Below, in pieces: positions 2,635 to 63,330 of a stretch of 64,000 bases of DNA. Made by a program: the position numbers and the translations under genes. The stretch is from Siphonodentalium dalli. Taxonomy: Eukaryota; Mollusca; Scaphopoda; Gadilida; Siphonodentaliidae. Numbering within the stretch: the first letter of the stretch is position 1; every line of letters begins with the position of its first letter. The notes under the pieces are model-generated. The model did no database searches. It had not been told where the DNA came from and saw only the letters and a program-made list of their open reading frames with translations. The stretch is taken from positions 135,287,990 through 135,351,989 of the forward strand of contig CP136067.1 of NCBI GenBank assembly GCA_032622095.1, written 5' to 3'.

Positions 2635-3350
2635 CAATGCAATTATTTGGGTTCTAGTCCATTCCGGTACCTCAAACATTGGAGTTTACAGAACACGATA
2701 AGAAATTTCACCAAAAATTGTGATTCTAGTAATATTTTAAACAAGAAATGAGCAGATCTGTGCAATGCAAGTGAAGCATATCATTACCTGTGAATATTCC
2801 AACTCATTGGAACCAAAATTGTTACTTTGACTCAAAATGTTTGCCAAAATATGGAAAATGGTAGATATTGCCCCAGCGTGTCCTGCCTTCGCTTGCAACT
2901 TGTGGTTGGTGTATAAAATTTGCTATTGTGCCTTCTATTCGTTGAACACTAACATGATTGATGCACCATGGTTAATTGTTACTATTGTCACCACTGACAT
3001 TACAAGAAACGTTGGATTTATCTCTCACAAACTTGACATAACTATCGGAAAAAATCACTTTTCATGTTTTGGACCATTTTGTTCACGTGAAATGTAACTA
3101 TCTTTGGTATAAAAGGTGTTTATTGTTTGGACTATCTTAAATGTGTTACACTACGGTAGTTATGGAACAAATTACTCAAGATTGCTTCCACAGTGGCAAC
3201 CAAATTTATTAAAAAGTTGATTCTTTACGTATATCGCGAACATAATTATCTACGTTTTTCGAAAAAGTAGCAAATAATGACTCACTTGGTTATTGTGCAT
3301 GTTAGTTAATCAACTGACAACTATATGTTTCGATTGTTGTCATGACGCCA
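2635..3350. mobile_element. Diverged copy of the 9.4-13.8 kb foldback arm
   Basis: This matches 9910-10625 in the same orientation, and the complement of the 12.6-13.4 kb arm, over its whole length, with many substitutions. Shared landmarks are the GTGAATATTCCAACTCA phrase, the segment ending CCATGGTTAATTGTTAC near 2965-2983, and the GACTCACTTGGTTATT phrase near 3280. A frame starting at 2837 stays open for 86 codons and aligns codon for codon with the frames at 10032 and 13234. It is a single arm; no inverted partner lies nearby. Confidence 0.75.
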
Positions 3351-6137: not shown

Positions 6138-6485
6138 TTAAAGTTCCTGTCTCAGATTAAAGTTGCATTATCCGAATTAAAGCTCCTAAATTACCATTTC
6201 TTTGGCTTCGGGGGTAAAAAATATTTGATTCCAGTCGAGGAACCCATCAAAGCTCAGAGTGATCACATATCGAAAAACGTTGTCAAACGGTCTCGGACAA
6301 AATTGCGGATGAAGATGGATAACTCTAAAATCAAGTGGTAATTCGGCCAAATTTCGTGACTGATAATACGGCCAGATTTTACAATTAATCGATTCTGATC
6401 ACTAACGCGTATTTCGAAGAAATGTTGTTGTTGTTGTTGTATCTTGATGATATTGGGACCGTCTGATCGGATTGAGTACCTTTAA
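6138..6485. mobile_element. TTAA-flanked MITE, family A, copy 1
   Basis: It is flanked by TTAA at 6138-6141 and 6482-6485. The right end reads GATTGAGTACC before TTAA, the terminal motif of the copies at 16857 and 42754; the left end is decayed. It carries the family core TTTGGCTTCGGGGGTAAAAA (6201-6220) and a GTT run at 6424. TTAA target sites are typical of piggyBac-type elements; assignment to that superfamily is inference from the target site alone. Confidence 0.65.
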
Positions 6486-9440: not shown

Positions 9441-10031
9441 ATACATCCGGCCGCCAGGTCACGGATGCGTGTTTTGGCGTATAAAGTTTTTTTCTCTGCG
9501 GATTTTGTAAATTCAGGTATCCGACATCAAGATTTTATCGGCTGGCCATCTGTCAGCCTTGAGCAATTTTTTGTATAGCGCCCTAAAAAGTATACCCCCC
9601 CCCCCCAATTTTTTTCACAGACGTAAAACCAGTTACTTGGAATTTATTGCAAACTCACATGACTAATCTAGTAAAATATATATATTTTCATGAAGCTAAA
9701 GTATAATGACACTATTTTGGCCCAAAATTGAAACTCACCATCCAAGATGGCCACCAAAATGGCCGCCGGAAGTTGAAAATATATCATTTTTTCACAATTA
9801 TATTCTAGATCAGTTCATGATGTTTGGAACTGGTTGAGTAATATGACTTTATTTTGTATTTTTTATATTAACTGATCATTGGAGCAATTATATATGCCAT
9901 TATTGGGGTCCTATTCGCTTGTGATCCCTCAAATATTCGATTTTACAGAAAGCGGTATAAAATTTCACAAAAAATGACAACTGGGATTCTAGTCATATTT
10001 CAACAAGACATGAACAGAAGGTTGCAATTAT

Positions 10032-10331
10032 GTGAGGCATACCATTACCTATGAATATTCCAACTCACTGGAACTAAAATTCTTACTTTGGCTCATAATG
10101 GCTGCCAAAATGGCCGCCAAAATGTGGAAAATGGTAAATATTGCCCTAGGGTGTCCCGCAATCGCTTACAAGTTGTGGTTGATGTACAAAATTGGCTATT
10201 CTGCTTTCTATACATTGAATACTAACATGTCTGCTGCACCATGGTTAATTGTTACTGTTATCGCCACTGACATCACCAAAAATATTGGACTTTTCTCTCA
10301 AAAACTTGACATAAATATCGGCAAAAATTAA
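10032..10331 (+). other. 99-codon frame conserved in the foldback arm
   Basis: This frame, its inverted counterpart at 12935-13234 and the diverged version at 2837-3097 stay in register with no frameshift. The peptide begins MRHTITYEYSNS, has an (MAAK)2 run from ATGGCNGCCAAA repeats, and a hydrophobic middle. The shared frame may only reflect absence of indels between related copies. I recognise no family and do not claim it is translated. Confidence 0.2.
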
Positions 10332-10849
10332 CTTTTCAGGTTTGGATCATTTTTTCTAGTAATATGTAACTATCTTGAAAGGTGTTTATTGTATTGGTCT
10401 ATCTTAAATGTGTCACACTACGGTGTTTATATACCAAATTGCTCAAAATGGCTTCCAAAATGGCAATCAAATTGGTAAAAGTTATTTTTTAACATATATC
10501 ATTATAACATTATATATATATAACATTATTCTCTGCGTTATCCGAAAATGTAGCAAATTGTGACTCACTTGGTTATTATACGTGTTAGGTAATTAACTGA
10601 CAACTAAATGTTCTATTATGGTTGTCCCAGTTCCGAATGGGGCATGACAAATTCATTTTAAAGTATGTAAATTTGCGGAGAACCTCTTTTGTGATTCTGA
10701 CCATATTATTGATAGGAAATGGGCAGAACTTTGAGACAGAACTGAGATGAACCATAATATGTGTCTCTTCTGGTCCATTGTGATAAACCAATATCAACTG
10801 GATACAGGATGGTTGCCAAGATGGTAGCCAGGGAGTTACTCCATGTGAG

Positions 10850-12440
10850 GTGAATTAGGTATACATGGAGTTAATGTATGTCATGAATGATGTGAATATT
10901 TATACAATGAGTGACTATATGGTTATGAGTGTGTTGTCCATAGTGAGATGTATTGGTATACAGGGAGAGGTCATGGTCATGTGTGGGGTGAATCGGTATG
11001 AATGGTGTGACTGTATGGTGTATGGTTGTGTGTATCATGTACGGGTGCACATTGTGTGCCTGTATGGACATTGATGTGGTATATGGATGTAGCTACATGG
11101 TCATCTATGTATTGATTATATATATATGGAGTGACTGTAAGGTCATGGGTGGAATGTACATGTGTTTCTGTATGCTCACGAATGGGGTGTGTGGATAAAT
11201 AGTGAGTGATGTTATGGTCAGGGGTAATGTGTATGGTATACATATCCACCTCACCATTGGCCATATCACTCACTGTATCCTTATTTGTCACACCATAGCC
11301 GAATAGCCACGAAAGATATACTAATACACCCCAGCCATGTCAGTATAGTCACTCCATGTGAGCATATGCACATCATCCGTGGCCATATAGCCACTCGCTA
11401 TATACACATACACCTCGCCTATGACCATATAGCAACACGATTGTATATCCGCATAACCTACACATGACCATACCGCCACGAGTTGCCAAGCAGGAACACC
11501 AGGTATACTCACACACCTGACAATTTAGTCACTTCCTGCATATATATTCATTACATCGATGATCATACAGTCACTCCTTGTATACCTACTCATCACACCA
11601 TTGACCATACAGTCACTACCTGTATACATATTCCACACACAGTCATATAACCACTCGATATATACATATGAAGCTCACCCTAGACCATAGAGTCACTCCA
11701 GGTATACATGTGCACCTCACCACTGGCCATTCAGTCCTTCCAGATATACAAAATCCCGCACACACGACCACTCATACCATCCATACTTGCATATACACCT
11801 CACACATGACAATTCAGCAATGCAATGTATAATCATACACGCCATCCATGATCATACAGCTAATCCCTACACACCCACCAATGATAATACATCCACGATA
11901 TATATACATATACATTACTACAAGGACACTTCCTATATACCCACACGATAATGTCCACCCAGCTTACTCCAGGTATGCATATAGACTTCAATCATGACAG
12001 TACAGTCATTCCATGTATACCACACATTACCCGTAACCATAAAATCACTCACTATTTATTCACACACCCCATCCATGATCATACAGAAAACACATGTACA
12101 TCCCACCCATGACCTTACAGTCACTCCATATATACATAATCAATACATAGATGACCATTTAGCTATATCCATACACCACACCAATGTCCATACAGGCACA
12201 TCGGATGCAACCGTACGGGATAGACACAACCATACACCATACAGTGACTCCATGAATACCGATACACCCCACACCTGACCATGACCTCTCCCTGTATACC
12301 TATAAATATCACTATGGACAACACAAGCATAACCATATAGTCACTCATTGTATACATATTCACATCATTCATGACATACACTAACTCCATGTATGCCTAT
12401 TCACCTCACCTCTGATCATAGAGTAACTCCATGTCTACCA
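10850..12440. repeat. Minisatellite, ~45-50 bp unit, strand switch near 11240
   Basis: About thirty degenerate units built on ATGACCATACAGTCACTCC and TGTATACATATTCACCTCAC. Left of about 11240 the units read as the complement (GGAGTGACTGTA...); right of it they read forward. The unit orientation switch marks the inner border of the left arm of the foldback element. Confidence 0.85.
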
Positions 12441-12934
12441 TCTTGGCATCAATCCTGTATCCAGTTGATATTGGTTTATCATAATTGACCAGAAGAGCCA
12501 TATATTATGTTTCATCTCAGTTCCGTCTCAAAGTTCTGCCAATTTTCTTTCAATAATATGGTCAGAATCACAAAAGAGGTTCTCCGCAAATTGCCATACT
12601 TTAAAATTAATTTGTCATGCCCCATACGGAACTGGGACAACCATAATAGAACATTTAGTTGTCAGTTAATTACCTATCACGTATAATAACCAAGTGAGTA
12701 ACAATTTGCTACATTTTCGGATAACGCAGAGAATAATGTTATATATATAATATTATAATGATATATGTAAAAAATTTTTTTTTAACAATTTGGTTGCCAT
12801 TTTGGAAGCCATCTTGAGCAATTTGGTATATAAACACCATAGTGTGACACATTCAAGATAAACCAATACAATAAACACATTTTAATCCAAAGATAGTTAC
12901 ATATTACAAGACAAAATGGTCCAAACCTGAAAAG

Positions 12935-13234
12935 TTAATTTTTGCCGATATTTATGTCAAGTTTTTGAGAGAAAAGTCCAATATTTTTGGTGATGTCAGT
13001 GGTGGCAACAGTAACAATTAACCATGGTGCAGCAGACATGTTAGTATTCAATGTATAGAAGGCATAATAGCGAATTTTGTACATCAACCACAACTTGTAA
13101 GCGATTGCAGGGCACCCTAGGGCAATATTTATCATTTTCCATATTTTGGCGGCCATTTTGGCAGCCATTTTGAGCCAAAGTAAGAATTTTGATTCCAGTG
13201 AGTTGGAATATTCATAAGTAATGGTATGCCTCAC
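12935..13234 (-). other. Inverted copy of the 99-codon frame
   Basis: Near-identical to the frame at 10032-10331, within the opposite arm. Differences are scattered substitutions (for example the Leu/Ser and Ile/Lys changes near residues 15-22). Same caveats apply. Confidence 0.2.
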
Positions 13235-13929
13235 TTATTTGCAACCTTCTGTTCATTTCTTGTTGAAATATGACTAGAATCCCAGTTGTGATTTTTTGTA
13301 AAATTTTATACCGCGTTCTACAAAATCGAATTTTTGAGTGTTCACAAGCGGATAGGACCCCAATAATTGCATGTTTAATTGCTCCAATGATCAGTTAATA
13401 TACAAAATACAAAATAAAGTCATATTACTCAACCAGTTCCAAACAGCATGAACTGATCTAGAAGATATTTGAGAAAAAATGCCATATTTTCAACTTCCGG
13501 CGGCCATTTTGGTGGCCATCTTTGATGGTGAGTTTCAATTTTGGCCCAAAATAGTGTCATTATGTCTTAGCTTCATAAAAATATATACATTTTACTAGAT
13601 TAGTCATGTGAATTTGCAACAAATTCCAAGTAACTGGTTTTACGTCTGGGGAAATCTGGGGGGGGGGGTATACTTTTTAGGGCGCTATAAAAAAAATTGC
13701 TCAAGGCTGACAGATGGCCAGCCGATAAAATCTTGTTGTCGGATACCTGAATTTACAAAATCCGCAGAGAAAAAAACTTTATACGCGAAAACAAGCATTC
13801 GTGAATTCCGGGTGTTTGGCGACCGGACTATATGCAGTTATGCATGTGGAGAAATAAGTATTCAGAGTTTCAGGGCAATATTTTTTTTCGAAATTTATTT
13901 GACTTGATTTAGATCCTCGTGTATAAAAT

Positions 13930-14200
13930 ACCATGTTTAGCCCTTCGATGGCGGGAGTGCTGTTGATGCAGCATTAAAGATCCCGTGCCAGTGCATTCTC
14001 TTATATATATACAAGTCTCCGACAGGGAGCCTCGTATATATCAGATAATGTTCTGGCTTACAAGTTCAAGGTAAATATTGTTAGGCCAATTTATTTCCTA
14101 ATATATGCGAGGCCCCCTGTGTGAGACACGCATATATATTAAAATGCATTGGCACAAGGTTTTCGCAAAAACATTGGTCACCTCGCATATTATAAGAGAA
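13930..14200. repeat. Dispersed repeat Y (complement at 24.79-25.03 kb)
   Basis: It shares CAGCATTAAAGA, GTGCATTCTCTTATA-type and GTAAATATTGTTAGGCCAAT phrases with the complement of 24787-25027, and a shorter relative lies at 44025-44100. The AATGCATT...TATATATGCGAG hairpin phrases link it to the palindromic elements at 15913 and 49741. Confidence 0.65.
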
Positions 14201-14322
14201 TGAATTGGCCTAAAAAATATCTTTTTTTTATAAATTTTTCTTTAACCATTTTTGTAATTTTTCTTACATTCCTTAACAATTTTTATCATTTTTTCTTACA
14301 TTCTTTAACGATAAAGATTCTT

Positions 14323-15465: not shown

Positions 15466-15809
15466 TTAAAGAGGCATACTCCAAAATTACTATTTCTTTG
15501 GCTTCGGGGGTAAATAATATCTGATTCGAGTCGAGGGAACCATCCATCAAAGCTCACAGTTATCAGATATCGATGGAATATTTGTCGGCCTGGCAAATAT
15601 TCGACGAATGATGACCGACATATTCTCGATATCAAATTGCGTTAAACAAAATGTTACCCTTTTGGGCATTTTTATATTATAGTTGACAGTGGTTAGTATT
15701 ATTTTTTGGCAATTAATCAATTCTGATAACTGAAGCGGCATATTAAGAAATGTTGTTGCTGTTGTTGTTGTTGTTGGAATCTGATGATATGGGGACTATC
15801 GAATCTTAA
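15466..15809. mobile_element. TTAA-flanked MITE, family A, copy 2
   Basis: TTAA at 15466-15469 and 15806-15809 brackets the same layout as 6138-6485: TTTGGCTTCGGGGGTAAAT near the left, then TCGAGTCGAGG, a GATATCGAT phrase, and a (GTT)n run followed by GGAATCTGATGATATGGGGA at the right. Terminal motifs are worn. Confidence 0.65.
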
Positions 15810-15912
15810 ACTAATCGCTAACCGATAAAAAGAAGATAGTTTTGTAGAGTCAGTAAAAATGGACTAAATTATATCGATGTGTTGTGTTGTTGAGCCATGG
15901 TATATGCTAAAT

Positions 15913-16371
15913 GTGACCCGTCATATCAAATCCAGTCGTAAGTCGGGATATTTTTTACTCTGTGCCAATACATTCTCTTATATATGCGAGTCGACCATAG
16001 GTCGCCTCGCATATATAAGAAAATGCATTGGCCTAACAATTTTTTATCATTTTTTTTAAATAAATGTTTCTTAATTTTTTAGGACATAAAATAAAAAAAA
16101 CATCCATTACCCTGCAGGGAGCCCCACACATATATAGAAGCATATAGAAGAGTGTCGTCTGCTCATGTTTGTCTGGGGCTCTGTATGGGTGAAATTATAA
16201 AATTGTTAAAAAATACAAGAAAAAATTATTAAAATTGTAAAAAATTGTTAGTCCAATGCATTCTCTTATATATGCGAGGCGACCTATGGTCGACTCGCAT
16301 ATATGAGAGAATGCATTGGCACAGGGTAAAAAAAATCCCGACTTACGACTGGATTTGATATGGCGGGTCAC
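15913..16371. mobile_element. 459 bp palindromic element with AAAT direct repeats
   Basis: The arms start GTGACCCGTCATATCAAATC and end in the complement, with one or two mismatches per 20 bases. The 4-base direct repeats AAAT (15909-15912, 16372-16375) look like a target duplication. Each arm contains a 69 bp hairpin (15964-16032; 16251-16320) with ~30 bp stems. No coding frame. The same hairpin pair occurs at 49884 and 50032 in an element with different ends. Confidence 0.8.
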
Positions 16372-16375
16372 AAAT

Positions 16376-16856: not shown

Positions 16857-17343
16857 TTAAAGGTACTCAATCCGATAAAACTCCTCTCAATTACTATTTT
16901 AATGGCTTCGGGGGTCAAAAATATTTGATTCGAGTCGAGGAAGTCACCCATCAAAGCTCAGATTTGTTAGATATCGATTTTAAAAATCTATTATTTTTCA
17001 TTATCGGGAATTCTTTCTGGCCCAGAAGACAGTCAAAATTTCGTTATTATTACCACTTGATTATAGAGTTATCCATCCTTGTCTGTTTGAATAGAGATTT
17101 GGCGTAAAATCTCAAGCAGGTTACCAAATTGACGGCAGTTATTAGTACTCATCTCGAGCAATTAACAAATTTAAAAAATCAATATCTAATAACTCTGAGC
17201 TTTGTTTGATGGGTTCCTCGACTCGAATCAAATATTTTTTACCCCCAAAGCCAAAGAAATAGTAATATAGGACCCTCTGATCGGATTGTTGTTGTTGGAA
17301 TCTGTTGAGATGGGGACCCTCTTTACGGATTGAGTACCTTTAA
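16857..17343. mobile_element. TTAA-flanked palindromic MITE, family A, copy 3
   Basis: TTAA duplications lie at 16857-16860 and 17340-17343. Termini are AGGTACTCAATCCG and its complement CGGATTGAGTACCT. The two halves are imperfect inverted copies over about 110-130 bp, each holding the TTCGGGGGT / ATATTTGATTCGAGTCGAGG core. A 94-codon frame (16823-17107) is read-through of this non-coding repeat. Confidence 0.85.
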
Positions 17344-23640: not shown

Positions 23641-24786
23641 CCGGTAATTCGCGGTCTATAATTATAACAAAATAAATTCAAATTAACCTTAAATATGTAT
23701 CATTCTGGCAGAAAATGTAATTTGCCGTAATTTCCCCTTGAAATACCATTCAATTTGACCGAATTAATGACAATTATCATATTTTAACTATCGTCACCCC
23801 GACACAGACATATAGTTCGATCCAGCTTTTGGATAATTTTATTCCTAATTTTCAATAGAACGCACGTGATACATTTTGCACGTTATTTTTTTCGTCTGGA
23901 GTGGATTTATTCCACTGGAGATGTTCTTTGTAGAGAAACAAACTTATCACACACGTATTGCTGTTATTTGACAATAAATTAACTGTTCTTTATATGGACC
24001 AGAAACTGCGAGTGGGAGATGTTCACAAACAGCTTATTTAAGTTGAACACTGAGAACAGCTTCAACAGGTCTGGAAAATAATGACGTGGAAATTCAGCTT
24101 CTTCAAGTATAACTATAAGTTATAACCAGTGAAGGGTCTGGGAAATGTGAAAATTCAGCTGTCCTAGTTGATTTTGAACAGCTATATATTATACTCTCTA
24201 GCTGGTCACTTTTATGCAACATGACAAAATATTTAAAATGCGCATAAAAAACTGGTCCGACTCCAAGTCTGCTCGTTAGAAAACCAGCTAAAATATCATA
24301 TTTGGATAGACAAAATGCTATTTTTCATCCAAGACTTCCCCATTCCATGTCTAAAAAATACTGCTAATTTTATTTTAAATGAATCAGTAACGTTCCGTAA
24401 GGTCACATCGGGTCATCACTATGCACCAAGCTATTAATCGCTCACTTACACTACTGTATCTGTATCTGTAGATATTACAGTGCAGGAACCAATTCTGGTA
24501 CTGTACTGTTATTGATATGATTGACACGATATTCATACAATATGATACATATAATTTATAACTGCAGGGTTTTTTTTTTTATGCACCATCCGCTTATTAT
24601 TTCTGTCAGTTCCGAATTAGGCAGTTCTGAATGTTTTGTTCACAAAAAGTCCTACTAGTATCCAAACTTTACAATCGTACATGATTCCTCTACAAACCAT
24701 AATTGCTTTACCAAGAACTTTCTCAAATTAAGGACACCAGATTCGTTCATTTAGAATTTTAATTCTTTCATGACTGGAACTTCCTG
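23641..24786. other. No feature seen
   Basis: AT-rich DNA. A loose direct repeat of CAGCTTATTTAAGTTGAACAC-like text occurs near 24030-24180. No exon. Confidence 0.3.
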
Positions 24787-25027
24787 AAATGAACTTCCTG
24801 AATGTGCCAATGCATTATCTTGTATATGTGAGATGCAAATAATTTATATGAGAATACATTGGCCTAACAATATTTACCTTGTGTTGACATTGTAAGCCCT
24901 TGGATTCACATATATATGATCGAGACTCCTATGGGAGACCGGCCCGCATTTACCGTATAAGAGCATGCTTACTGCTTAGTATATGGTCTTTAATGCTGCA
25001 CCAGTGCAGCTCCCATCATGAAAGGGT
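24787..25027. repeat. Dispersed repeat Y, copy 2
   Basis: Its complement matches 13930-14200. It ends GAAAGGGTTAA at 25019-25029, the same terminal motif (CCCTTT plus TTAA) seen in the elements at 44544 and 49741, so it may be a relic of that TTAA family. The other terminus is not clear. Confidence 0.6.
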
Positions 25028-25200
25028 TAAGAGACCCGTAAACAGGGACACCAGAGAAGGGTGCATGCAGGGGCATTGCCCCCCCCCCCTGCCCTGGCCC
25101 AGGAGAGTCCAGTGGGTACCCGAAAAGTGCCCTGCTGACTGGTTTGCCCCGCTTGCCCTTGGGTGCTTCCGGTGTCCTTGCCCGTAAACAGTTTTTGATG
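25028..25200. other. GC-rich block with C11 and imperfect inverted repeat
   Basis: This 170 base block is far richer in GC than its surroundings and holds C11 (25079-25089). CAGGGACACC near 25042 and GGTGTCCTTG near 25172 are imperfect inverted copies, suggesting the ends of a short inserted element. Open frames on both strands are by-products. Confidence 0.35.
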
Positions 25201-25608: not shown

Positions 25609-28600
25609 TTAGCTCAACTTTACTTTGTAAAGTTTGAGCTATTGCCATGGCTTGGTATCCGTCGTCCGTGTGAGTGTGTGTGTGTGCGTGTGTGATGCGT
25701 CAACAATTTCCTTAAGCACAGGCTGCAGTTCGTACCTTTGGTCAGATTATTATGAAATTTGTCATGAATGTTAACAATGACATGTAGATGGGAACGAGTC
25801 ATTTTGGGGTCATTTGGCCGAAAAACATGGCCGCCAGCAGCCATCTTGGATTTTACTCTTTGTATGACTAAATTCTTTAGCACGGGCTACAGGTCGTACC
25901 TTTAGTCTGATCATTTAAAAATTTGTCTTGAATGTTAACAATGACATGTATATGGGAAAGAGTCATTTTGGGGTCATTTGGCCGAAAAACATGGCCGCCA
26001 GCAGCCATCTTGGATTTTACTCTTTGTATGACTAAATTCTTTAGCACGGGCTACAGGTCGTACCTTTAATCTGATCATCATAAAATTTGTTATGAATGTT
26101 AACAATGACATGTAGATGGGAACGAGTCATCTTGGGGTCATTCGGCTGAAAAACATGGCTGCCAGCAGCCATCTTGAATTTTGCTCTTTGTATGACTAAA
26201 TCCTTTAGCACGGGCTTCAGGTCGTACCTTTAGTCTGATCATCATAAAATTTGTCATGAATGTTAATAATGACATGTAGATGGGAACGAGTCATTTTGGG
26301 GGCATTCGGCCAAAAAACATGGCCGCCAGCAGCCATCTTGGATTTTACTCTTTGTATGACTAAATCGTTTAGCACGGGCTACAGTTCGTACCTTTAGTCT
26401 TATCATCATAAAATTTGTCATGGTTGTTAACAATGGCATGTAGATTGGAACTAGTCATTTTGGGGTCATTCGGCCGAAAAACATGGCCGCCAGCAGCCAT
26501 CTTTGATTTCAAAATTGAATTCATTAGCATGGGCCACAGGTCGTACTGTTCGTCTGATCATCAAAAAATTTGTCATAAATGTTAACAATGACATGTAGAT
26601 GGGAACGAGTAATTTTGGGGTTATTCAGCGGAAAAACATGGCCACCAGCAGCCATCTTGGATTTTACTCTTTGTATGACTAAATCCTTTAGCACGGGCTT
26701 CAGGTCGTACCTTTAGTCTGATCATCATAAAATTTGTTATGTATGTTAATAATGACATGTAGATGGGAACGGGTCATTTTGGGTTCTTTCGGCCAAAAAA
26801 CATGGCCGCCAGCAGCCATCTTGGATTTTACTCTTTGTATGACTAAATCCTTTAGCACGGGCTTCAGGTCGTACCTTTAGTCTGATCATCATAAAATTTG
26901 TTAGGAATGTTAATATTGACATGTAGATGAGAACGAGTGATTTCGGGGTCGTTCGGTCAAAAAACATGTCCGCCAGCAGCCATCTTGGATTTTACTCTTT
27001 GCATGACTAAATCCTTTCCCGCGGGCTGCAGGTCGTAGCTTTGATCGGAACTTCATGAAATTTGTCATGGATGTTAACAATGACATGTAGATGGGAACGA
27101 GTCATTTTGGGGTCGTTCAGCCAAAAAACATGGCCACCAGCAGCCATCTTAGATTTTACTCTTTGCATGACTAAATCCTTTGGCGCCGGCTACAGGTCGT
27201 ACCTTTTGTCTGATCTTTATGCAATTTGTCATGAATGTTGACATTGACATGTAGATGGGAACGAGTGATTTTGGGGTCGTTCAGCTAAAAAACATGGCCG
27301 CCAGCAGCCATCTTGGATTTTACTATTTGCATGACTAAATCCTTTGGTGCGGGCTGCAGGTCGTACCTTTAGTAGAATCTTCATGAAATTTGTCACGGCT
27401 GTTGACATTGACATGTAGATGGGAACAAGTCATTTTGGGGTCGTTCGGCCAAAAAACATGGCCACCAGCAGCCATCTTGGATTTTACTCTTTGCATGACT
27501 AAATCCTTTGGTGCGGGCTGCAGGTCGTACCTTTGGTAGAATCTTCATGAAATTTGTCATGGCTGTTGACATTGACATGTAGATGGGAACGAGTCATTTT
27601 GGGGTCATTCGACCAAAAAACATGGCCACTGGTGGCCCATCTTGGATTTCAAAATTAAATCCATTGGCGCGGGCGGGCTACATGTCGTACTATTCGTCTT
27701 ATTGTCATGGAATTTGTCATGAATGTTAACAATGACATGTAGATGGGAACGAGTCATTTTGGGGTCATTTGGCTGAAAAACATGGCCGCCAGCAGCCATC
27801 TTGGATTTTACTCTTTGTATGACTAAATTGTTTAGCACGGGCTACAGTTCGTACCTTTAGTCTTATCATCATAAAATTTGTCATGGATGTTAACAATAGC
27901 ATGTAGATTGGAACGAGTCATTTTGGGGTCATTCGGCCGAAAAACATGGCCGCCAGCAGCCATCTTTCATTTCAAAATTAATTCATTAGCATGGGCCACA
28001 GGTCGTACTGTTCGTCTGATCATCATGAAATTTGTCATGGATGTTAATATTGACATGTAGATGGGAACGAGTCATTTTGGGGTCATTTGGCCGAAAAATA
28101 TGGCCGCCAGCAGCCATCTTGGATTTTACTCTTTGTATGACTAAATTCTTTAGCACGGGCTACAGGTTGTACCTTTAGTCTGATCATCATAAAATTTGTC
28201 ATGAATGTTAACAATAACATGTAGATGGGAACGAGTCATTTTGGGGTCATTCGGCCGAAAAACATGGCCGCCAACAGCCATCTTGGATTTTACTCTTTGT
28301 ATGACTAAATCCTTTAGCACGGGCTTCAGGTCGTACCTTTAGTCTGATCATCATAAAATTTGTCATGAATGTTAATAATGACATGTAGATGGGAACGAGT
28401 CATTTTGGGGGCATTCGGCCAAAAAACATGGCCGCCAGCAGCCATCTTGGATTTTACTCTTTGTATGACTAAATCGTTTAGCACGGGCTACAGTTCGTAC
28501 CTTTAGTCTTATCATCATAAAATTTGTCATGGATGTTAACAATGGCATGTAGATTGGAACGAGTCATTTTGGGGTCATTCGGCCGAAAAACATGGCCGCC

Positions 28601-29570
28601 AGCAGCCATCTTTCATTTCAAAATTTAATTCATTAGCATGGGCCACAGGTCGTACTGTTCGTCTGATCATCATGAAATTTGTCATGGATGTTAATATTGA
28701 CATGTAGATGGGAACGAGTAATTTTGGGGTCATTCGGCCCAAAAACATGGCCGCCAGCAGCCATCTTGGATTTTACTCTTTGTATGACTAAATCCTTTAG
28801 CACGGGCTTCAGGTCGTACCTTTAGTCTGATCATCATAAAATTTGTCATGGATGTTAACAATGACATGTAGATGGGAACGAGTCATTTTGGGGTCGTTCA
28901 GCCAAAAAACATGGCCACCAGACTTCTTCAGATCATCTTAGATTTTACTCTTTGCATGACTAAATCCTTTGGTGCGGGCTGCAGGTCGTACCTTTGGTTG
29001 AATCTTCATGAAATTTGTCATGGCTGTTGACATTGACATGTAGATGGGAACGAGTCATTTTGGGGTCATTCGACCAAAAAACATGGCCACTGGTGGCCCA
29101 TCTTGGATTTCAAAATTAAATCCATTGGCGCGGGCGGGCTACATGTCGTACTATTCGTCTGATAATCATGAAATTTGTCATGGATGTTAATATTGACATG
29201 TAGATCGGAAACGAGTCATTTTGGGGTTGTTCGGCCAAAAAACATGGCCGTCAGCAACCATCTTGGATTTTACTCTTTGCATGACTAAATCCTTTAGCGC
29301 TGGCTACAGGTTGTAGCTTTGGTCGGATCTTCATAAAATTTGTCATGGATGTTAATAATGACATGTAGATGGGAACGAGTTCTTTTGGGGTCATTCGGCC
29401 AAAAAACATGGCCACCAGCAGCCATCTTGGATTTTACTCTTTGCATGACTAAATCCTTTGGCACAGGTAAGACATTTCAATCAGCATCTTTCCTATTTCT
29501 CCATTTACTGTAAACCATTAAATTATATTCCCCTACCTAAGTTGAGCTACAGTGTCATTGACACTTTCAT
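25609..29570 (+). mobile_element. Type-1 Helitron-like element, ~23 units of ~164 bp
   Basis: The 5' end is TAGCTCAACTT (25610-25620), part of a hairpin at 25611-25640. The 3' end has the complement AAGTTGAGCTA (29539-29549) and a perfect hairpin AGTGTCATTGACACT (29551-29565). Between them lie about 23 tandem units of 155-165 bp, each with CATGTAGATGGGAACGAGTC, TTTTGGGGTCATTCGGCC and CATGGCCGCCAGCAGCCATC phrases. Short subterminal inverted repeats, a 3' hairpin and a satellite core fit Helentron/DINE-like non-autonomous elements and the bivalve 'pearl' type; that placement is from memory of those families. No protein is encoded; frames of 60-90 codons are products of the repeat. Confidence 0.7.
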
Positions 29571-31275
29571 TAAATTTTACAGGCATGTTTAAATGTAGGA
29601 TCGAATCTAGATCGACTCTGGGTGGGAGCTATCGAAAAACATGGCCACGAGCAGCCATCTTGGATTTTACTCTTTGCATGAGTAAATTATTTGGCACACC
29701 CTACAGACTGCAACCCTCATCCAAGCATCACCAAACTTGATATGGATAATCGGTGCGACCTCTAGATGGGAGCCATACAATTTTTTTGAATTACGTTGAA
29801 AAACATGGCCATCTTGGATTTTACTCTTTGTATGATTCGGCACACCCCACAGGCAATCTCCCACATCCGATCATCACCTAACTTCATAAGTTTCTTCAGG
29901 GTGACCTCTAGATGGAAGCCATCAATTTTTCCCGAAAATCTTTTATAAAACATGGCCGACAGCAGCCATCTTGGATTTCAAATTTGAATTCATCGGCACA
30001 CCCTGCAACCCGCATTTATTGGATAGTTGTTTTTAAAATTGACAAGCATGTTTAGGACCACCTCTAGATGTAAACAATCAAAAACTTTCGATAACAAACA
30101 TGGCCGACACCAGCCATCTTGGATTTTCCACTTTGCATGACTAAATCCTTTCGCACACGCTACAGACCACATCCCTCATTCGATCATCACCAAACTTCAT
30201 ATGGATCTGTTGGGTGACCACTAGATAGGAGCCCTCATTTATTTTCTGAATTTCGTTGAAAAACTTGGCTGCCAGTGGCCATCTTGGATTTACTCTTTGT
30301 ATGACTAAATCCATCGGCGTGCGCTCTACTGGCCACAGCCCTCGTCCGATCGTCATCAGATGTTAGGGGTGACCACCAGATTGGAGCTATCTAATTTTTT
30401 GAAAAACATGACCGCCAGCAGCCATCTTGAATTTTACTCTTTGCATGACTAAATTTTTCAGCACACCCTACAGGCCACATCCCTCATCCGATCATGACCA
30501 AACTTCATATGGATCTTCAGGGTAACCACTAGATTGGATCCATTATATTTTTCACAAATTTTGTTTGAAAAGATGGCCGCCAGTGGCCATCTTCGATTTT
30601 ACTCCTTGTATGACTAAATCCTTTGGCACACCCTAAAGGCCACCTCCCTCATATGATCATAATTCAGTGACCACTTGATAGGAGCCATCATTTTTTTTCT
30701 GAATTTCGATGAAAAACATGGCTGCCAGTGGCCATCTTGGATTATACTCTTTGTATGACTAAATCCTTCGGAGTTCGCACTACAGGCCACAGCCCTCGTC
30801 CGATCATCATCAAATTTCAAATGGATGTTAGGGGTGACCACCAGATTGGAGCCATCTAATTTTTCCAAATTTTGTTGAAAAACATGACTGCCAGCAGCCA
30901 TCTTGGATTTTACTCTTTGCATGACTAAATTCTTCGGTACACCCTACATCCACATCCCTCATCCGATCATCACCAAACTTCATACTAGTATGGATCTTCG
31001 AGGTAACCACTAGATTTGATCCATCATTTTTTTCTCAAATTTCGTTCGAAAACATGGCCGCCAGTGGCCATCTTGGATTTTACTCTTTGTATGACTAAAT
31101 CCTTCGGCATGCGCACTACAGGCCACAGCCCTTATCCGATTGTCATCAAATTTCAAATGGATCTTAGGGATGACCACCAGATTTGAGCCATCTAATTTTT
31201 CCAAATTTTGTTGAAAAACATGACGACCAGCGGCCATCTTGGATTTTACTCTTTGCATGACTAAATTCTTTCCGG
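29571..31275 (+). mobile_element. Type-2 Helitron-like element, remainder (~11 units)
   Basis: About eleven diverged units of 145-165 bp continue the element begun at 25322. They share the AACATGGCCGCCAG and CCATCTTGGATTTTACTCTT core with type 1 but carry CACCAAACTTCATATGGATC and GTGACCACTAGATTGGAGCC phrases instead of the type-1 middle. Greater divergence between units indicates that this array is older than the insertion inside it. The 3' end is not clear near 31275. Confidence 0.65.
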
Positions 31276-31846: not shown

Positions 31847-33411
31847 TAGCTCAACTTTACTTTGTAAAGTTTGAGCTATTGCCATGGCTTTGTCAGCCGT
31901 CGTCTGGTGTGTGTGCGTGTGTGATTCGTCAACAATTTCCTTTAGCACGGGCTACAGGTCATACCTTTGGTCGGATCATTATGAAATTTGTCATGGATGT
32001 TGACATTGTCATGTAGATGGGAACGAGTCATTTTGGGGTGATTCGGCATAACACATGGCCGCTAGCGGCCATCTTGGATTTCAAAATTCAATCCATTAGC
32101 ACGGGCTACAGGTCGTACTGTTCGTCTGATCATCATGAAATTTGTCATGGCTGTTAACAATGACATCTAGATGGGAACGAGTCATTTTGGGGTCATTCAG
32201 CAAAAAAACATGGCCACCAGCAGCCATCTTGGATTTTACTCTTTGCATGACTAAATCCTTTGGCACAGGCTACAGGTCGAAGCTTTGGTCTTATCATTCT
32301 GAAATATGTCATGGCTGTTGACATTGACATGTAGATGGGAACGAGTCACTTTGGGGTCATTCGGAAAAAAAACATGGCCGCCAGCGGCCATTTTGGGTTT
32401 CAAAATTCAATCCATTAGCACGGGCTACAGGTCGTACTATTTGTCTGATCATCGTGAAATTTGTCATCGATGTTAATATTGACATTTAGATCTGACCAAT
32501 TCATTTTGGGGTAATTCGGCAAAAAAACATGGCCACCAGCAGCCAGATTTCAAAATCAATCCATTAGCACGGGCTACATGTCATACTGATCATCATGAAA
32601 TTTATCATGGATGTTAATATTGACATTTAGATGGGAACGAGTCATTTTGGGGTCGTTCGGCCAAAAAACATGGCTGCCAGCAGCCATCTTGGGATTTTAC
32701 TCTTTGCATGACTAAATCCTTTGGCATGGGCTCCAGGTCGTAATTTTGGTCAGATCTTCATGAAATTTGTCATGGCTGTTAGCAATGACATGTAGATGGG
32801 AACGAGTCATTTGGGGTCATTCGGCAAAAAAACATGGCCACCAGCAGCCATCTTGGATTTTACTCTTTACATGACTAAATCCTTTGGCACAGTCTACAGG
32901 TCGAAGCTTTGGTCATATCATTATGAAATTTGTCATGGCTGTTGACATTGACATGTAGATGAGAACAAATCATTTTGGGGTCATTCGGTAAAAAAAAACA
33001 TGACCGCCAGCGGCCATCTTGGATTTCAAAATTCAATCCATTAGCACGGGCTACAGGTCGTACTATTTGTCTGATCATCGTGAAATTTGTCATCGATGTT
33101 AATATTGACATTTAGATCTGACCAATTCATTTTGGGGTAATTCGGCAAAAAAACATGGCCACCAGCAGCCATCTTGGATTTCACTCTTTGTATGACTAAA
33201 TCCTTTGGCACGGGCTACAGGTCCTAACTTTGGTCAGATCATTATGAGTTTTTTTGGGGTCATTCGGCAAAAAAACGTGGCTGCCAGTGGCCATCTTGGA
33301 TTTTACTCTGCATAAATAGGCCTTTTAAATTTCCACGTTCCTAATCACTCCATTGACTATAACACATGAAATTATTCCCTTTCCAAGTTGAGCTACAGTG
33401 TCATTGACACT
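31847..33411 (+). mobile_element. Type-1 Helitron-like element, second copy (~9 units)
   Basis: TAGCTCAACTT at 31847-31857 and hairpin at the 5' end; AAGTTGAGCTA (33385-33395) and hairpin AGTGTCATTGACACT (33397-33411) at the 3' end. The core holds about nine units, some shortened, so copy number differs from 23 to 9 between the two type-1 copies in this window while the termini are nearly identical. Confidence 0.75.
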
Positions 33412-34294: not shown

Positions 34295-35138
34295 ATACAT
34301 ACAATGTGAGTGTCAGTACTAGTTTGCCTTAGTTTTGTAATTGTTTTCAGTTTTGGAAGTAACATGTAGAAAATAAGTTTGTGATGACACATTCTGGAGA
34401 ATTCCAGCACCGTATATGGACTTAGAAAATAAATAGGTGTCAAAAATAAAATGTAATAACTCTGTTTGTTGAAAGAAGGGTTCCTTGACTCAAATAAAAA
34501 AAAATTCACCCTTGAAGCCAAAGATATAGTAATTTATCGGTGTTATATTGGACAAGGCATCTTTAACCACTAATATGGGACATTGTCCAAAGAATCATTA
34601 AAAATCATCAAACCTTTTAGAATGAAAAAATCAATGGCATTAAATCCGAACACCAATCCATACACCCTTTGGACTGACTTTTCTGTTTGATTTAGATAGG
34701 TGTATGGGTTATAGAAACTAGCAGATCCATTCAAACTGACCTCGCAAGTAAATAAAGGGACCTGAAACAACTTGTGTGTTGCTTAAAAGTTTCATGTAAT
34801 ACACTTCTGGCAATTCATGTCAGATTAAGATTTGTCGAGAAATTGGTAGCTTTAAAACCATCATCACAAATTGCTCTGGAAAAATGGTTGTTGGTGATTC
34901 TCTGCATTTTTCCGGAATAATCCATAAGGCCATTAATTACCATTAATTTGAGGGTATTTTATGTGCAAAGACTTTAGATATCGTGTCTGTGCGGTTGGTG
35001 TTTCATATTTCCAAAAGCGAAAATTAGAGTTTGAAAGCAAAAACCCGACTACGGTTAAATTTATAGTTGATTACTTTAGTTTTGGGCGGTATTTCGGTAT
35101 ACCGATTATAATAGGTAAGATTTTCAATATCATTACCT
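34295..35138. other. No gene; relic of MITE family A at 34440-34570
   Basis: 34465-34545 preserves the family A core in complement (GGGTTCCTTGACTC, CACCCTTGAAGCCAAAGATA) with a TTTAA near 34563. The rest is AT-rich with no signal. Confidence 0.4.
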
Positions 35139-42753: not shown

Positions 42754-43241
42754 TTAAAGGTACTCAATCCGATAAAGCTCCTCTCAATTACTATTTCAAT
42801 GGCTTCGAGGGTCAAAAATATTTGATTCGAGTCGAGAAAGTCACCCATCAAAGCTCAGATTTGTTAGATATCGATTTTAGAAATCTATTATTTTTCATTA
42901 TCGGGAATACTTTCTGGCTCAGATCTCAGTCAAAATTGCGTTATTATTACCACTTGATTTTAGAGTTATCCATCCTTGTCTGTTTGAATAGAGTTTTGGT
43001 GTACAAATCTCGAGCAGGAAACGAAATTGACGGCAATTATTAGTACTCATCTCGAGAACATAAGAATTTTCAAAAATCAATATCTAATAACTCTGAGCTT
43101 TGTTTGATTGGTTCCTCGACTCGAATCAAATATTTTTTACCACCAAAGCCAAAGAAATAGTAATATAGGACCCTCTGATCGGATTGTTGTTGTTGGAATC
43201 TGTTGAGATGGGGACCCTCTGGTCGGATTGAGTACCTTTTA
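42754..43241. mobile_element. TTAA-site palindromic MITE, family A, copy 4
   Basis: Left TTAA (42754-42757) then AGGTACTCAATCCGA; right end TCGGATTGAGTACCT then TTTA (43238-43241), a one-base change from TTAA. It is about 90 percent identical by eye to 16857-17343 across both arms. Frames at 42822-43043 (+) and 43070-43471 (-) are read-through of this element. Confidence 0.85.
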
Positions 43242-44543
43242 GGTGGTACAGAATTAGATATAATTTCATCATTGATGGTCATGGCAATTTGTTCAGGAAA
43301 CTTAAATCTTACTAAATTTAAGATACATATACAAAATTTAGGTTTATTCAGCAACCTGGGACCCTTATCTACATGTGATGCAAGTTTTGGTTTATTTTGC
43401 ATGAAAATGTATACTGCGTTGACTTTGCATCTGTCAGTCTGTTTGTCCATCCAGGTATATATCATGGTCACGGGTTATCAGATCTGAATGAAATTTGGAA
43501 TGGAGGTTTACTGGGGTCATGAATATATATAGCCCGCCTGTGAGGATATCTTAGCTATGGGTTATCGAATCTGAATGTAATTTGACTTCATGACTTATTT
43601 CCCTAGAGTACCAAATGAAGTCTATATCTTCCATTCTAGAGTGATGTTTCTTTGTTATTTAAAATTTAGCATTTTCCGTTTGAAGGATATCCTCCTGTTT
43701 ATTTAAATTTGGTTTGCTGTTCTGACCATCTTTCAATTTGGCACCATGGGGATATTCCAGCACCCAAGGTGCGACTTATTGTTTATGATACAATCAAATC
43801 AGTAGTAGATTAAGCCTTTCAAATTTTCAACTGAGGAACAGATACTTCTATGAATAGACTGTGATATTTGAATGAGAGGCCGATAACGATCAGCAGATGT
43901 TAACCCATCCCTTGGCGATAGTAAATTACTATGATCGGAATCATAAATGAGAGTTTTTATGTTGAATTGTCGAGTATATTGTTATATACTATTATAGACA
44001 AATGTACACAAATTATTGGAATTTATGGGTCACTCGCATTTATATAAGAGAATGCACTGGTACAGGATCTGTAATGCTGCACCACCACAGCCTTGGGTTA
44101 AATGTGAAGACGGTGACCTGGATATGGAATACTTGGGTTAAGAGAGTCCAATTTAAGTTTACACTCATGATGTATCATATTCTACCAAAAACACCCATCA
44201 AGATAAAGACACCTCGCTGCTGACCCATTAATATCAATTATATAGCAGAGCTGTCGACAAATCACAGGCAATGTTTATATTGAAGGCTGGCATCTCTATT
44301 AAACCAATAACATTTATACTGACATCAGGCCATCTGTAGAGTGATATACTCAGCTGTGCAATGCAGCACATATGTTCTAGTCTACTGTTAATATCATGTG
44401 ATGTGTATTGTTGAAACTTTTTTTTAAATTAGATACCATAGCTTTCTTTATCTGCACATTGGCATAAGAGACATCAGAAAATAATATAGCCTTATCAATA
44501 GCTAAGTAGTCCAAAGGCATGGGATGGAATTGGTGAATGGGGT
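43242..44543. other. Worn repeats; no gene
   Basis: 43395-43580 is a 'CATCTGTCAGTCTGTTTGTC' family repeat with two GGTTATC(A/G)(A/G)ATCTGAATG units about 90 bases apart. 44025-44100 is a fragment of dispersed repeat Y (TATATAAGAGAATGCACTGG; AATGCTGCACCACC). Confidence 0.4.
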
Positions 44544-44758
44544 TTAACCCTTTCAGTGCCAAGTCCGATTTTTGTATCAACCCATATTTCCTTGATCATT
44601 TTTCAAATTTATTAATTATAATAATGTAATACATTGATGGAAAGAGCTCTTAGAGCTTTTACCATCAATGTATCACATTATTATAATCATCAAATTTGAA
44701 AAATGATCAAGGAAATATGTGTTGATGCAAAAATCGGACTTGGCACTGAAAGGGTTAA
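44544..44758. mobile_element. TTAA-flanked hairpin MITE (CCCTTT ends)
   Basis: TTAA at 44544-44547 and 44755-44758 flanks a 207 bp near-perfect palindrome whose arms begin CCCTTTCAGTGCCAAGTCCG. Arms of about 100 bp differ at only a few positions around a small AGAGCTCTTAGAGCT centre. TTAA duplication plus CCCTTT termini is typical of piggyBac-related MITEs (established for that superfamily; placement here is inference). Confidence 0.85.
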
Positions 44759-47030: not shown

Positions 47031-47463
47031 GTGAGTGTAAAACGTCATTGTTTACTGCGTACATATAATATGAAGTTTTGGTAAAACAAATTCAAGGTTA
47101 ACACGAAGATTCGGAAAGACACTGAGAGTGAGAATAACGCATCGCTTTAGACTTGAATTGTAAGTATAACATACGTTATAGAACTTAGATTCTCACAAAC
47201 TATTCAACTATTCTTTTGGTGACTAGTGTCATAGTGATTACTTTTCACCTTTGCTCAAAATTTATACTTGAAGTTACACAATTTCGTGGTATCTGTTAAC
47301 TTGCAATGGTACAGAGTCATAGTCATTATTGGGCGTATTCGAATCTTTATTCGTCTATGATCGTGAACGACATGTTATCAAGATCATATAAATATAGCAC
47401 AATCGGTCCAAGATGTTGTCATCATTGTTGATAAATTAAAGGCTATAGTACTAGTAATACTAA
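47031..47463. other. No feature seen; second donor at 47160
   Basis: ATT/GTAAGTATA at 47157-47168 is a strong donor-like site without a matching exon in frame; it could end an untranslated exon. Confidence 0.2.
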
Positions 47464-50205
47464 TAGTCCACTGTCCAGCGCATTTATGAGAAAACAGTGC
47501 CAAACCTCAAACTAAATTACTAATTGCAACACAATGTTTCTGAGCAGGATTATGACTATTAACCAAATATAAACAACATAGGCCCACTAAAAATAAAAAA
47601 GGATCAAGAAAGCGAAATTGGTAAATTTTGTGAAATAAATAAAAATTTGGTAAAACTAAATGACTCAATTTATAGCTTTTCAATGATGTTTATAAAAAAA
47701 CTTTATTTCACATGTCTTTCCATTCGATTCATATATCTTTTTGTTGAGTACACAATCGTGATTACATAACAGAAAACATTTTCCAGATACGTTGAGTATT
47801 TTACGAGTTATGTGCCTCCAAAATTGGGAGTTTGTCTAATTTCGGAGCCTCAATTTCCAAGAATTAGCTAAAATCCATATTTTATGGTGTAGTATTTTAA
47901 AAACTAGAGAAAAATGAAGGGATGACTTGCTGTTGTATTAGTTGCCTCAATATATTGTGCACAAAAAATTATTACTTCATGCATCTATGATTGAGAACAA
48001 AATGTGTGTCCCATTCTATGGACTTTGCCATACTTGCCTTGTGACACAGAACTGGTGTGATGAAATAGCATATTTGAGGTCATACAACTCAATAAATTGA
48101 TATCCATATGCCCTGTATTTCTCATAACCTCTTACATGTAAGTGTACTAGGTTAAATACACTGTGCTGGAGTTGCTAAAGATGTGCCAAAATCAACTTTA
48201 CGGCCCTGTGAATCCTTAGTATTGACTCTTTTCCAAAAGATGCCATTTTGGACTGTTTTGGGGTGTTTTTGTCCATTTTTAATGTTTTTCTGGCACAAAT
48301 AGTAAATATAAACAATGAATACAATTACCGTAGTGTTCAATGTGTAAAATCATTTGAATGTTCCTCCTAAAACACTTAGTGTTGGAAAAATAGGATTACA
48401 CTGGTTATGCTAATTCAACATTGAACAGTCACTGGATTTCACATGTTTTTCAAGAAACTTACTCCATATTTGAACATTGATAATGGGGTAGGTGAAATCA
48501 GTGCAAATCACAAAAGGCTATGATCTTGCCGCCATATTCTAGTCATTGGAGACAAAGGGTTGTTTTATTCCATTTTGTGTAGATTATTCTTGCATAATAA
48601 AAAGTTTAGTACCGGTAGTTTAGTGGAGGTTTATTTAGAACTTTATGAGCTTGTTATATAGAACAACCCGGAAATAATTCACCATTTCGTCATCAAGTTG
48701 CAACAAAAAGGATCGTAGCTCTAAATATGAACATCAAAACAGGAAGCAGTATACTCTGCATCAAATAATAATGATTGTAGGAGCTGGTGATAATAAAGTT
48801 TTATGCATCAAGGTCCATGTTTTCTGAGATTTTGTCAATATGGCTCCCCTACCCCATTTATATTCAGATATTCAAATTTGGCATCAGTTTCCAAAAAAAT
48901 TTGTGAAATTCAGTGACATTCATTGGCATATCCAATATAATTAAGGCTATTATATCGACACTGAAGTGTTTTAGGAGGAAAGTTCAAATGATTGTACACA
49001 TTAAACACACATTGTTTTCACAATTTTCACAAAAACCTTTAAAAATGGACAAAAACACCCAAAATGGCATTTTTTATAAAAGAGTCAATTCTCAAGATTC
49101 AAAGGGCCATAATTTTATTTTCTGGAATTTCCTTCACAGTGTGTTTAACCATGTATACTTAAGTGATTATGAGAAATAAAGGGAAAATGGATATATATTT
49201 ATTAAGTTGTATGACCTCAAATATGCTATTTCATCACGCTGGTCTGGACGACAGGCAAATTTGGCTGTCCATACAATGGTGGAACACACATTTTGTTTAA
49301 GAATATTTTTGTCCTCTCAATCATAGATGCATAAAGAGAACATATTTTGTGTACAACCTAGAGAGGAAATGACTAAAACAACAAGAAATTCCTTCATTTT
49401 TCTTTAGTTTTTAAAATACAAGACCATAAAAAAAGGATTTTAACTAATTTTGAGAAATTGAGGTTCCGAAATTAGATAAACTCCAAATTTGGAGGCACAT
49501 AACTAAAAAAATACTCAACGTATCTGGGAAAGATTTTCTGTTCCGTAATCAGGGTTGTGTACTCTACAAATTGGATATATAAATGGAAGGCATTGTGAAA
49601 TATAGTTTTTTATAAACATTCTTGAAAAGCCATAAGTTTAGTATTTTTTAATATCAAATTTTGACAAATTTATTTTACAAAATTCATCAATTTCGCATTT
49701 CTTGATTCTTTTTGATTTTTAGTATGTTGTTTGTGATTGGTTAACCCTTTACCCAAAAAACCGGCCAAATAAAGCTTCAACAGCCTAAAATATCTTCAGT
49801 CTGTCTCAATAGAACCATACAAATATGGATATCATTGGAACCGGCTCCTTGACCACATTGTGATAGTTACAGTTATGCCCTGTGCCAATGCATTCTCTTA
49901 TATATGCGAGTCGACCATAGGTCGCCTCGCATATATAAGAGAATGCATTGGCCTAAAAAAAATCTTTTTTTAACACTTTTTACCATTTTTTCTTACATTC
50001 TTTAACAATTTTATAATTTTTAATGTGTTAAGCCAATGCATTCTCTTATATATGCGAGGCGACCTATGGTCGACTCGCATATATAAGAGAATGCATTGGC
50101 ACAGGGCCCTTCTGTTGGGTAAAGGGTTAAAGCACTTATTCCCATGAGAAACTTTGTGTTGCAATTAGTTTGAGGTGAAACCATAAATGCACTGGACTAT
50201 AACGC
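47464..50205. repeat. 2.7 kb inverted repeat (palindrome)
   Basis: 47464-48495 and 48860-50205 are inverted copies at roughly 80 percent identity, with a ~360 base spacer. Paired landmarks: CTCAAACTAA...TTGCAACACAA (47508) with TTGTGTTGCAATTAGTTTGAG (50153); GTGCCTCCAAAATTGGGAGTTTG (47811) with its partner at 49475; GCCATTTTGGACTGTTTTGG (48242) with its partner at 49050. The right arm is 386 bases longer because of the TTAA element at 49741. No coding frame. Confidence 0.85.
49741..50130. mobile_element. TTAA-flanked palindromic MITE inserted in the palindrome
   Basis: TTAA at 49741-49744 and 50127-50130. Termini CCCTTTACCCAA and complement TTGGGTAAAGGG. Each half holds a 69 bp hairpin (49884-49952; 50032-50100) identical in plan to those at 15964 and 16251. 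The opposite arm of the host palindrome shows the uninterrupted site at 47559-47562 (CTATTAACC), so insertion with TTAA duplication can be read directly. Confidence 0.9.
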
Positions 50206-50495
50206 ACATGTACCAGTCTCCACATTGCTGGCCACGGCACAACTGTCTGTCATCGTTTGTCATTCGTCTTCAATGTGGTTGTTCTCTTTCCTATTTTCAA
50301 GACTCCTTGTCAGCTGACAAGTCTGAATGAACATCCACTTACACAAAGTCTTATGGCTGGGACCATATTTCACCACAGCACAACAAATGATTATTACCAC
50401 TTTAGAGCGCGTTCTCTTGTAGATTTATAGTAAGTCAGTATTTTACCCGCACGATATTAAGATTCCATAATTTTGAGGCGAATTTGAGCGTAAGC

Positions 50496-50528: not shown

Positions 50529-50603
50529 ACTTCCGGTAAAGTCACCGATCACGTGATCACATGAGGACAGAGTGGTAATAATAGTAATAACATGATTTTG
50601 TCT

Positions 50604-50743
50604 GGCGTCATGGTTTATTAACGGCCCTCCAGAATTATTAACAGCCCTCGGGCCTATTAGTGGCCCTTGGCTGCATCTCGGGCCTCTAATAGGCCCTTGG
50701 GCTGTTAATCATTCTTGTCGGCCTGTCAATAAACCATGACGCC
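50604..50743. repeat. 140 bp palindrome
   Basis: GGCGTCATGGTTTATT (50604-50619) is the exact complement of 50728-50743, and the match continues inward through TTAACGGCCC / GGGCTGTTAA and TCGGGCCTATTAG / CTAATAGGCCC with mismatches. The theme 'GGCC...ATTA' recurs in the palindrome at 54029. Confidence 0.8.
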
Positions 50744-51138
50744 TTAAAAAAAGACCATTTTTGTGAGTCATCTTTTATAACCCAATATACATGTACTACT
50801 AGTACTAGTAGGCCTTGATCCAAATCTGGGCCACATTGGGCCCATGGTTGAAAAGTTAATAAATGCGCCAAAAACATGACCGAGTTATACACACACACCC
50901 TCACACACACAAAGATACACTTACAGATGGCAGGTTTTTATATACCGGTATATAGATTAGATCATTTCTGTTGAGTATAATAAGAGATGGCCCCATATAT
51001 GGCTGGATTTAGGTACAGTCTCCCTTTAAATAGATTGTTATATATCATTTTCAACATAGCAATCAACATCATGACCAAAGCTATTTGTACTTTACATAAT
51101 TTCATTCTAAAATAATTTATCTGCCCTTGTCATTTCAG
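50744..51138. other. No gene; ends in splice acceptor
   Basis: CA-rich run near 50890-50912. The final pyrimidine-rich CCCTTGTCATTTCAG (51124-51138) is a strong acceptor. Confidence 0.3.
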
Positions 51139-63104: not shown

Positions 63105-63330
63105 CAAAGCCACTTGATTTTAGAGTTATCTATCTTCGTCCACAATTTGGTCGGTTTGACAAATACTTTCCAGGCAGAAAAATGTACGTATCTCAAGAAA
63201 TAACAGAATTCAAATATCGATATCTGATCACTCTGAGCTTTGATGAGTGGGTTCCTTGACTGGAATCAGATATGTTTTATCCCCGAAGCCAAAGGAATAG
63301 TAATTTAGAGGTGTTTAATCGGATCATCAT
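63105..63330. mobile_element. MITE family A, partial copy 5
   Basis: It matches the right half of 42754-43241 (CTTGATTTTAGAGTTATC, TCGATATCTGATCA, GGGTTCCTTGACTGGAATCA, CCCCGAAGCCAAAGGAATAG) with many changes; the termini are not preserved. Confidence 0.6.

Follow-up and report, generated by a model that had tools for sequence, protein, structure and literature searches.

The window, by which we mean the whole 64-kb stretch of DNA analysed, has a GC content of 36.8% and, judged from its sequence, looks like non-coding DNA of a eukaryote, probably an animal: it contains no stop-to-stop frame of at least 150 amino acids (the longest is 134), ARAGORN finds no tRNA in it, and it gives no match to Rfam at gathering scores. 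Tandem arrays with units of about 164 bp occupy 25709-29467 (23 copies) and 31938-33247 (about 8 copies), an array of 166/308-bp units lies at 30086-31270, and a TTAGGG-like tract is also present. Inverted repeats are numerous. One of them is an imperfect palindrome whose left arm (47473-48495, forward strand) aligns with the complement of 48845-50197 once an element within the latter, here called element A, is taken out. The right arm (48845-50197, reverse strand) is thus broken by element A, and a 349-bp spacer (48496-48844) lies between the aligned arms. Element A occupies 49741-50130 and measures 390 bp including the TTAA at both of its ends, or 382 bp between them, while at the mirrored place in the left arm a single, unoccupied TTAA (47559-47562) pairs with the TTAA adjoining the element. 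The initial annotation had described the two places in these terms, and both its coordinates and its letters hold for the right-arm block, as does the single left-arm TTAA; in the arm alignment, the left arm does not lack homology beside 47559-47562 but carries it on both sides.

The two sides of the site differ in how this homology is expressed. On the inner side, 47559-48495 matches the complement of 49744-48845 with an E-value of 1e-169 and 73.7% identity over 974 gapped columns; when the inner arms are realigned without the TTAA, 693 of 861 ungapped columns are identical, corresponding to a K2P distance of 0.23. The outer arms are identical at 59 of 79 columns, and beyond the site two anchors stand out, 47519-47541 against 50169-50147 (22 of 23 bases) and 47473-47488 against 50197-50182 (15 of 16), with GTCCAG(C/T)GCATTTATG forming the outermost match of the two arms. 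Local alignment of the outer flanks scores 52, which none of 2000 dinucleotide shuffles reaches (maximum 36). Because alignment between the arms is poor over the first 16–17 nt beyond the TTAA, homology on the outer side depends on the anchors together with the conserved spacing from anchor to TTAA (17 nt in the left arm and 16 nt in the right). Just beyond the palindrome, at 50596-50751, lies a separate short inverted repeat that is 80% self-complementary over 158 columns.

Element A begins with TTAACCCTTTACCCAA at 49741-49756 and ends with its reverse complement at 50115-50130. Its left terminal inverted repeat, CCCTTTACCCAA (49745-49756, forward strand), is identical at 12 of 12 positions to the right one (50115-50126, reverse strand). 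Inward of the left repeat follows a subterminal stretch (49757-49876) for which no relative was found in the window (best other match, E 0.24), and then a 76-bp module (49877-49952, forward strand) that is itself a hairpin with 27-bp arms at 49884-49910 and 49926-49952. An AT-rich spacer (49953-50031) separates this first half from a second half on the opposite strand (50032-50107), to which it is complementary at all 76 positions. By eye, no target duplication could be recognised around the module inside element A. Folded as single-stranded DNA, the element is far more stable than its shuffled counterparts (z −22.9; 0 of 100), and its longest stop-free stretch is 66 codons. The 14-mer TTAACCCTTTACCC has two exact sites in the window, which are the two ends of element A; with up to three mismatches allowed it has four sites against a mean of 6.2 expected by chance, so that the ends alone do not constitute a repeat within the window, and only one copy bearing them was found in the 64 kb. 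TTAA-bounded pairs of perfect 12-bp inverted repeats set 80–1500 bp apart are, as a class, well above expectation, with three in the window and none in any of 100 dinucleotide shuffles; when up to two mismatches are tolerated, the window contains 10 such pairs, compared to a shuffle mean of 0.63 and a maximum of 3.

These features very probably identify element A as a non-autonomous MITE of the piggyBac type that used a right-arm TTAA as its insertion site and is missing from the left arm. As described in one study (PMC2872659), piggyBac elements target TTAA and have terminal repeats of 12–19 bp with CC[C/T]T, and MITEs are usually shorter than 500 bp and without coding capacity. Element A shares with the superfamily and its MITEs the TTAA target, flanking the element on both sides, the single TTAA at an empty site, here a paralogous one, and 12-bp CCCT ends (CCCTTTACCCAA, 12 of 12); it is short (382 bp) and non-coding (at most 66 codons). 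It differs from piggyBac itself in that the window contains no transposase for it. Mobilisation was presumably by a piggyBac transposase: an enzyme supplied from elsewhere in the genome would recognise the CCCTTTACCCAA ends, and element A would have entered an older inverted repeat at a TTAA of its right arm and duplicated that TTAA, leaving the left arm with its TTAA unoccupied. Kolobok is another superfamily that duplicates TTAA (PMC9587614 and PMC6004289), and the window does contain elements of one family whose ends, TTAA-AGGTACTCAATC, are Kolobok-like. Element A shares the TTAA target with Kolobok and the T2-MITEs, but Kolobok termini are 5′-RR and YY-3′ according to PMC9587614, with purine-purine ends (AG... 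in a Xenopus table) among Kolobok and T2-MITE elements, whereas those of element A are CC...GG. We therefore regard a Kolobok-type origin for element A as highly improbable.

Other elements of these kinds are found nearby. The AGGTACTCAATC family is represented by two copies, 16857-17343 and 42754-43239, that are 93.6% identical over 486 columns, the former with TTAA at both ends and the latter with TTAA at its left end only; part copies lie at 6157-6485, 15480-15574, 34442-34552 and 63110-63324. At 44544-44758 there is a further TTAA element with CCCTTTCAGTGC ends (CCCTTT) and a perfect 12 of 12 repeat. It is nearly a complete palindrome (92% self-complementary over 215 bp), a fold-back piggyBac-like MITE. 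A second palindrome (9459-13804) is larger and less diverged than the host of element A, its arms being 1.8 kb long and matching at 1643 of 1777 columns; a stretch at 2637-3329 is related to it (77–78%). No filled and empty pair was found in this second palindrome, where the sole gap of at least 8 bases is 8 long.

The initial annotation went further, holding that the sequence itself proves a TTAA-duplicating insertion that took place after the palindrome had formed. There is good support for a TTAA element having inserted here and duplicated its TTAA target; the claim of proof for its timing goes too far. Since piggyBac transposases usually excise precisely and without a footprint (PMC2872659), a left arm that had once been filled could look empty, and the empty site alone therefore does not establish the order of events. 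A more informative comparison is that between the inverted repeats inside element A and the arms around it: none of 88 pairs in the element (76 from the module and 12 from the ends) differs, whereas 168 of the 861 columns of the inner arms do (Fisher P = 2.8e-8). This difference indicates that element A postdates the divergence of the two arms, unless its hairpins have been homogenised. It argues against a history in which the element once occupied both arms and then vanished from the left one, either through precise excision or through recombination of its two TTAA copies. Precise piggyBac excision, as described in that source, would leave the left arm just as it is observed, but element A would then date back to the divergence of the arms, and we consider this history very unlikely, although the argument from age fails if hairpins are homogenised. 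The hairpins of element A could have stayed identical through gene conversion or template switching, which would lend it a false youth. The pairs also come unevenly from the element, 76 of the 88 being from the module, which may not share the history of the ends. The related elements described below speak to both sides of the question. The module halves of element B are close too (3 mismatches, with a further 2 between its ends), while those at place C differ at 17 sites and 3 gap columns, and homogenisation therefore does not always hold: module halves do decay in this DNA.

Even a secure age for element A would leave the geometry to be considered, because a comparison of filled and empty sites dates the insertion to after the arm sequences split and not necessarily to after their head-to-head arrangement. 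The insertion could predate the palindrome if two repeat copies that had already diverged were brought together. In such a history the apparent palindrome consists of two oppositely oriented copies that were inserted separately, one of which had already received the MITE when they came together. The arms are indeed diverged (168 of 861 inner columns, and 20 of 79 outer columns, differ), no test shows that they were once identical as a palindrome, and the palindrome as a whole has, by eye, no clear target duplication of the kind that a single insertion would leave, except for a possible 2-bp TA. Two observations weigh mildly in the other direction. The arms have no relatives elsewhere in the window at E ≤0.01, so that a dispersed repeat of that sequence is unsupported here, and the two copies sit close together around the 349-bp spacer, although two full-length copies would align equally well. 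We judge the joining of separate copies to be unlikely, and favor insertion of element A into the right arm of an inverted repeat that already existed.

The hairpin module of element A recurs in the window, where one interior is found at five places and is flanked by ends of three or more kinds. The closest relative is in element B (15912-16372), whose module matches that of element A at 97.3% over 73 columns and 98.6% over 74 columns, inside terminal repeats TGTGACCCG(T/C)CATATCAAATCC... that are unrelated to those of element A. These long terminal repeats, TGTGACCCG(T/C)CATATC, give no significant match to element A, and at the outer edge of the module the two elements agree from approximately CCCTGTGCC inward and diverge outward. 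By eye, no target duplication was recognised around element B; its middle (16056-16191) has no other match in the window at E 0.01. The remaining three places carry diverged forms of the module. Place C (13937-14213) contains decayed copies (76% and 79%) as well as a partial one (89% over 38 columns), with module sequence at 13982-14209; its left end is TTAGCCCTTCGATGG, and its right end was not found. Place D (43900-44101) has TTAACCCA and TGGGTTAA as its ends, which have only 8 matching bases, and half a module (44024-44066; 84% over 43 columns) between them. Element E (24759-25030) is bounded by TTAATTCTTTCATGA and, on the opposite strand, by TTAACCCTTTCATGA, and contains a decayed module (24803-24863; 69% over 72 columns). 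An end of element E matches the left end of place C at 78% over 45 columns (E 0.002) and a subterminal stretch of place D at 84% over 25 columns (E 0.009). C, D and E look like members of one TTAA family, even though the right end of C is missing and the ends of D share only 8 bases.

One tentative explanation for this distribution is that the 76-bp double-hairpin module acts as a portable cassette, moving among transposon families whose ends are unrelated (A; C, D and E; B), perhaps across superfamilies and possibly via hairpin-driven template switching, so that different transposases might spread one interior. Common descent with changed ends, or nested insertion, are possible alternatives for the shared module.

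Searches outside the window returned little that resembles either the element or its module. The hairpin 24-mer and the gapped palindromic pattern have no exact matches in viral contigs, the 20-mer has none in prokaryote genome contigs, and 47440-50240 has no match among phages. The 16-bp end of element A is present in ten viral contigs, in which the longest matches to the element span 20 bases (95%) and 23 bases (87%). We take these ten contigs to be chance matches and not relatives, as the exact inverted 12-mer partner is present in none of them. The 23-base match was likewise set aside; it is a further, inexact end-like site in one of these contigs, oriented away from the first site there, and the two bound no element. 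Among the papers listed in literature searches, judged by their titles and the openings of their abstracts, none names the hairpin module, whose sequence entered these searches as the exact string CCCTTTACCC and not by similarity.

The nearest described case that we found for a shared interior is the CMITE group of Acropora corals, in which interiors are more conserved between families than ends (PMC2872659). Element A resembles the CMITEs in its TTAA duplications, its non-coding character and its CC[C/T]T ends (CCCTTT in most CMITE families), as well as in having an interior better conserved between families than its ends; that source also describes a CMITE locus with filled and empty alleles. 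There are differences too. CMITEs, as described there, are about 100 bp long with a different 75-base interior, whereas element A is 390 bp long with a double hairpin inside, and the empty site that corresponds to it is one arm of a palindrome, a paralogous sequence and not an allele. The 60-bp CMITE consensus finds nothing significant in the window (at best 13 identical bases, E 0.10), and by this measure the CMITE interior is absent from the window of element A.

The insertion record at this locus is itself mostly ordinary. Its value is that a filled and an empty site in one sequence fix the ends of a transposon and its target duplication without recourse to a second genome. The shared hairpin interior is the less ordinary part and worth following: if one interior is truly shared across superfamilies, the CMITE puzzle, in which interiors are more conserved than ends, would become testable in another genome.
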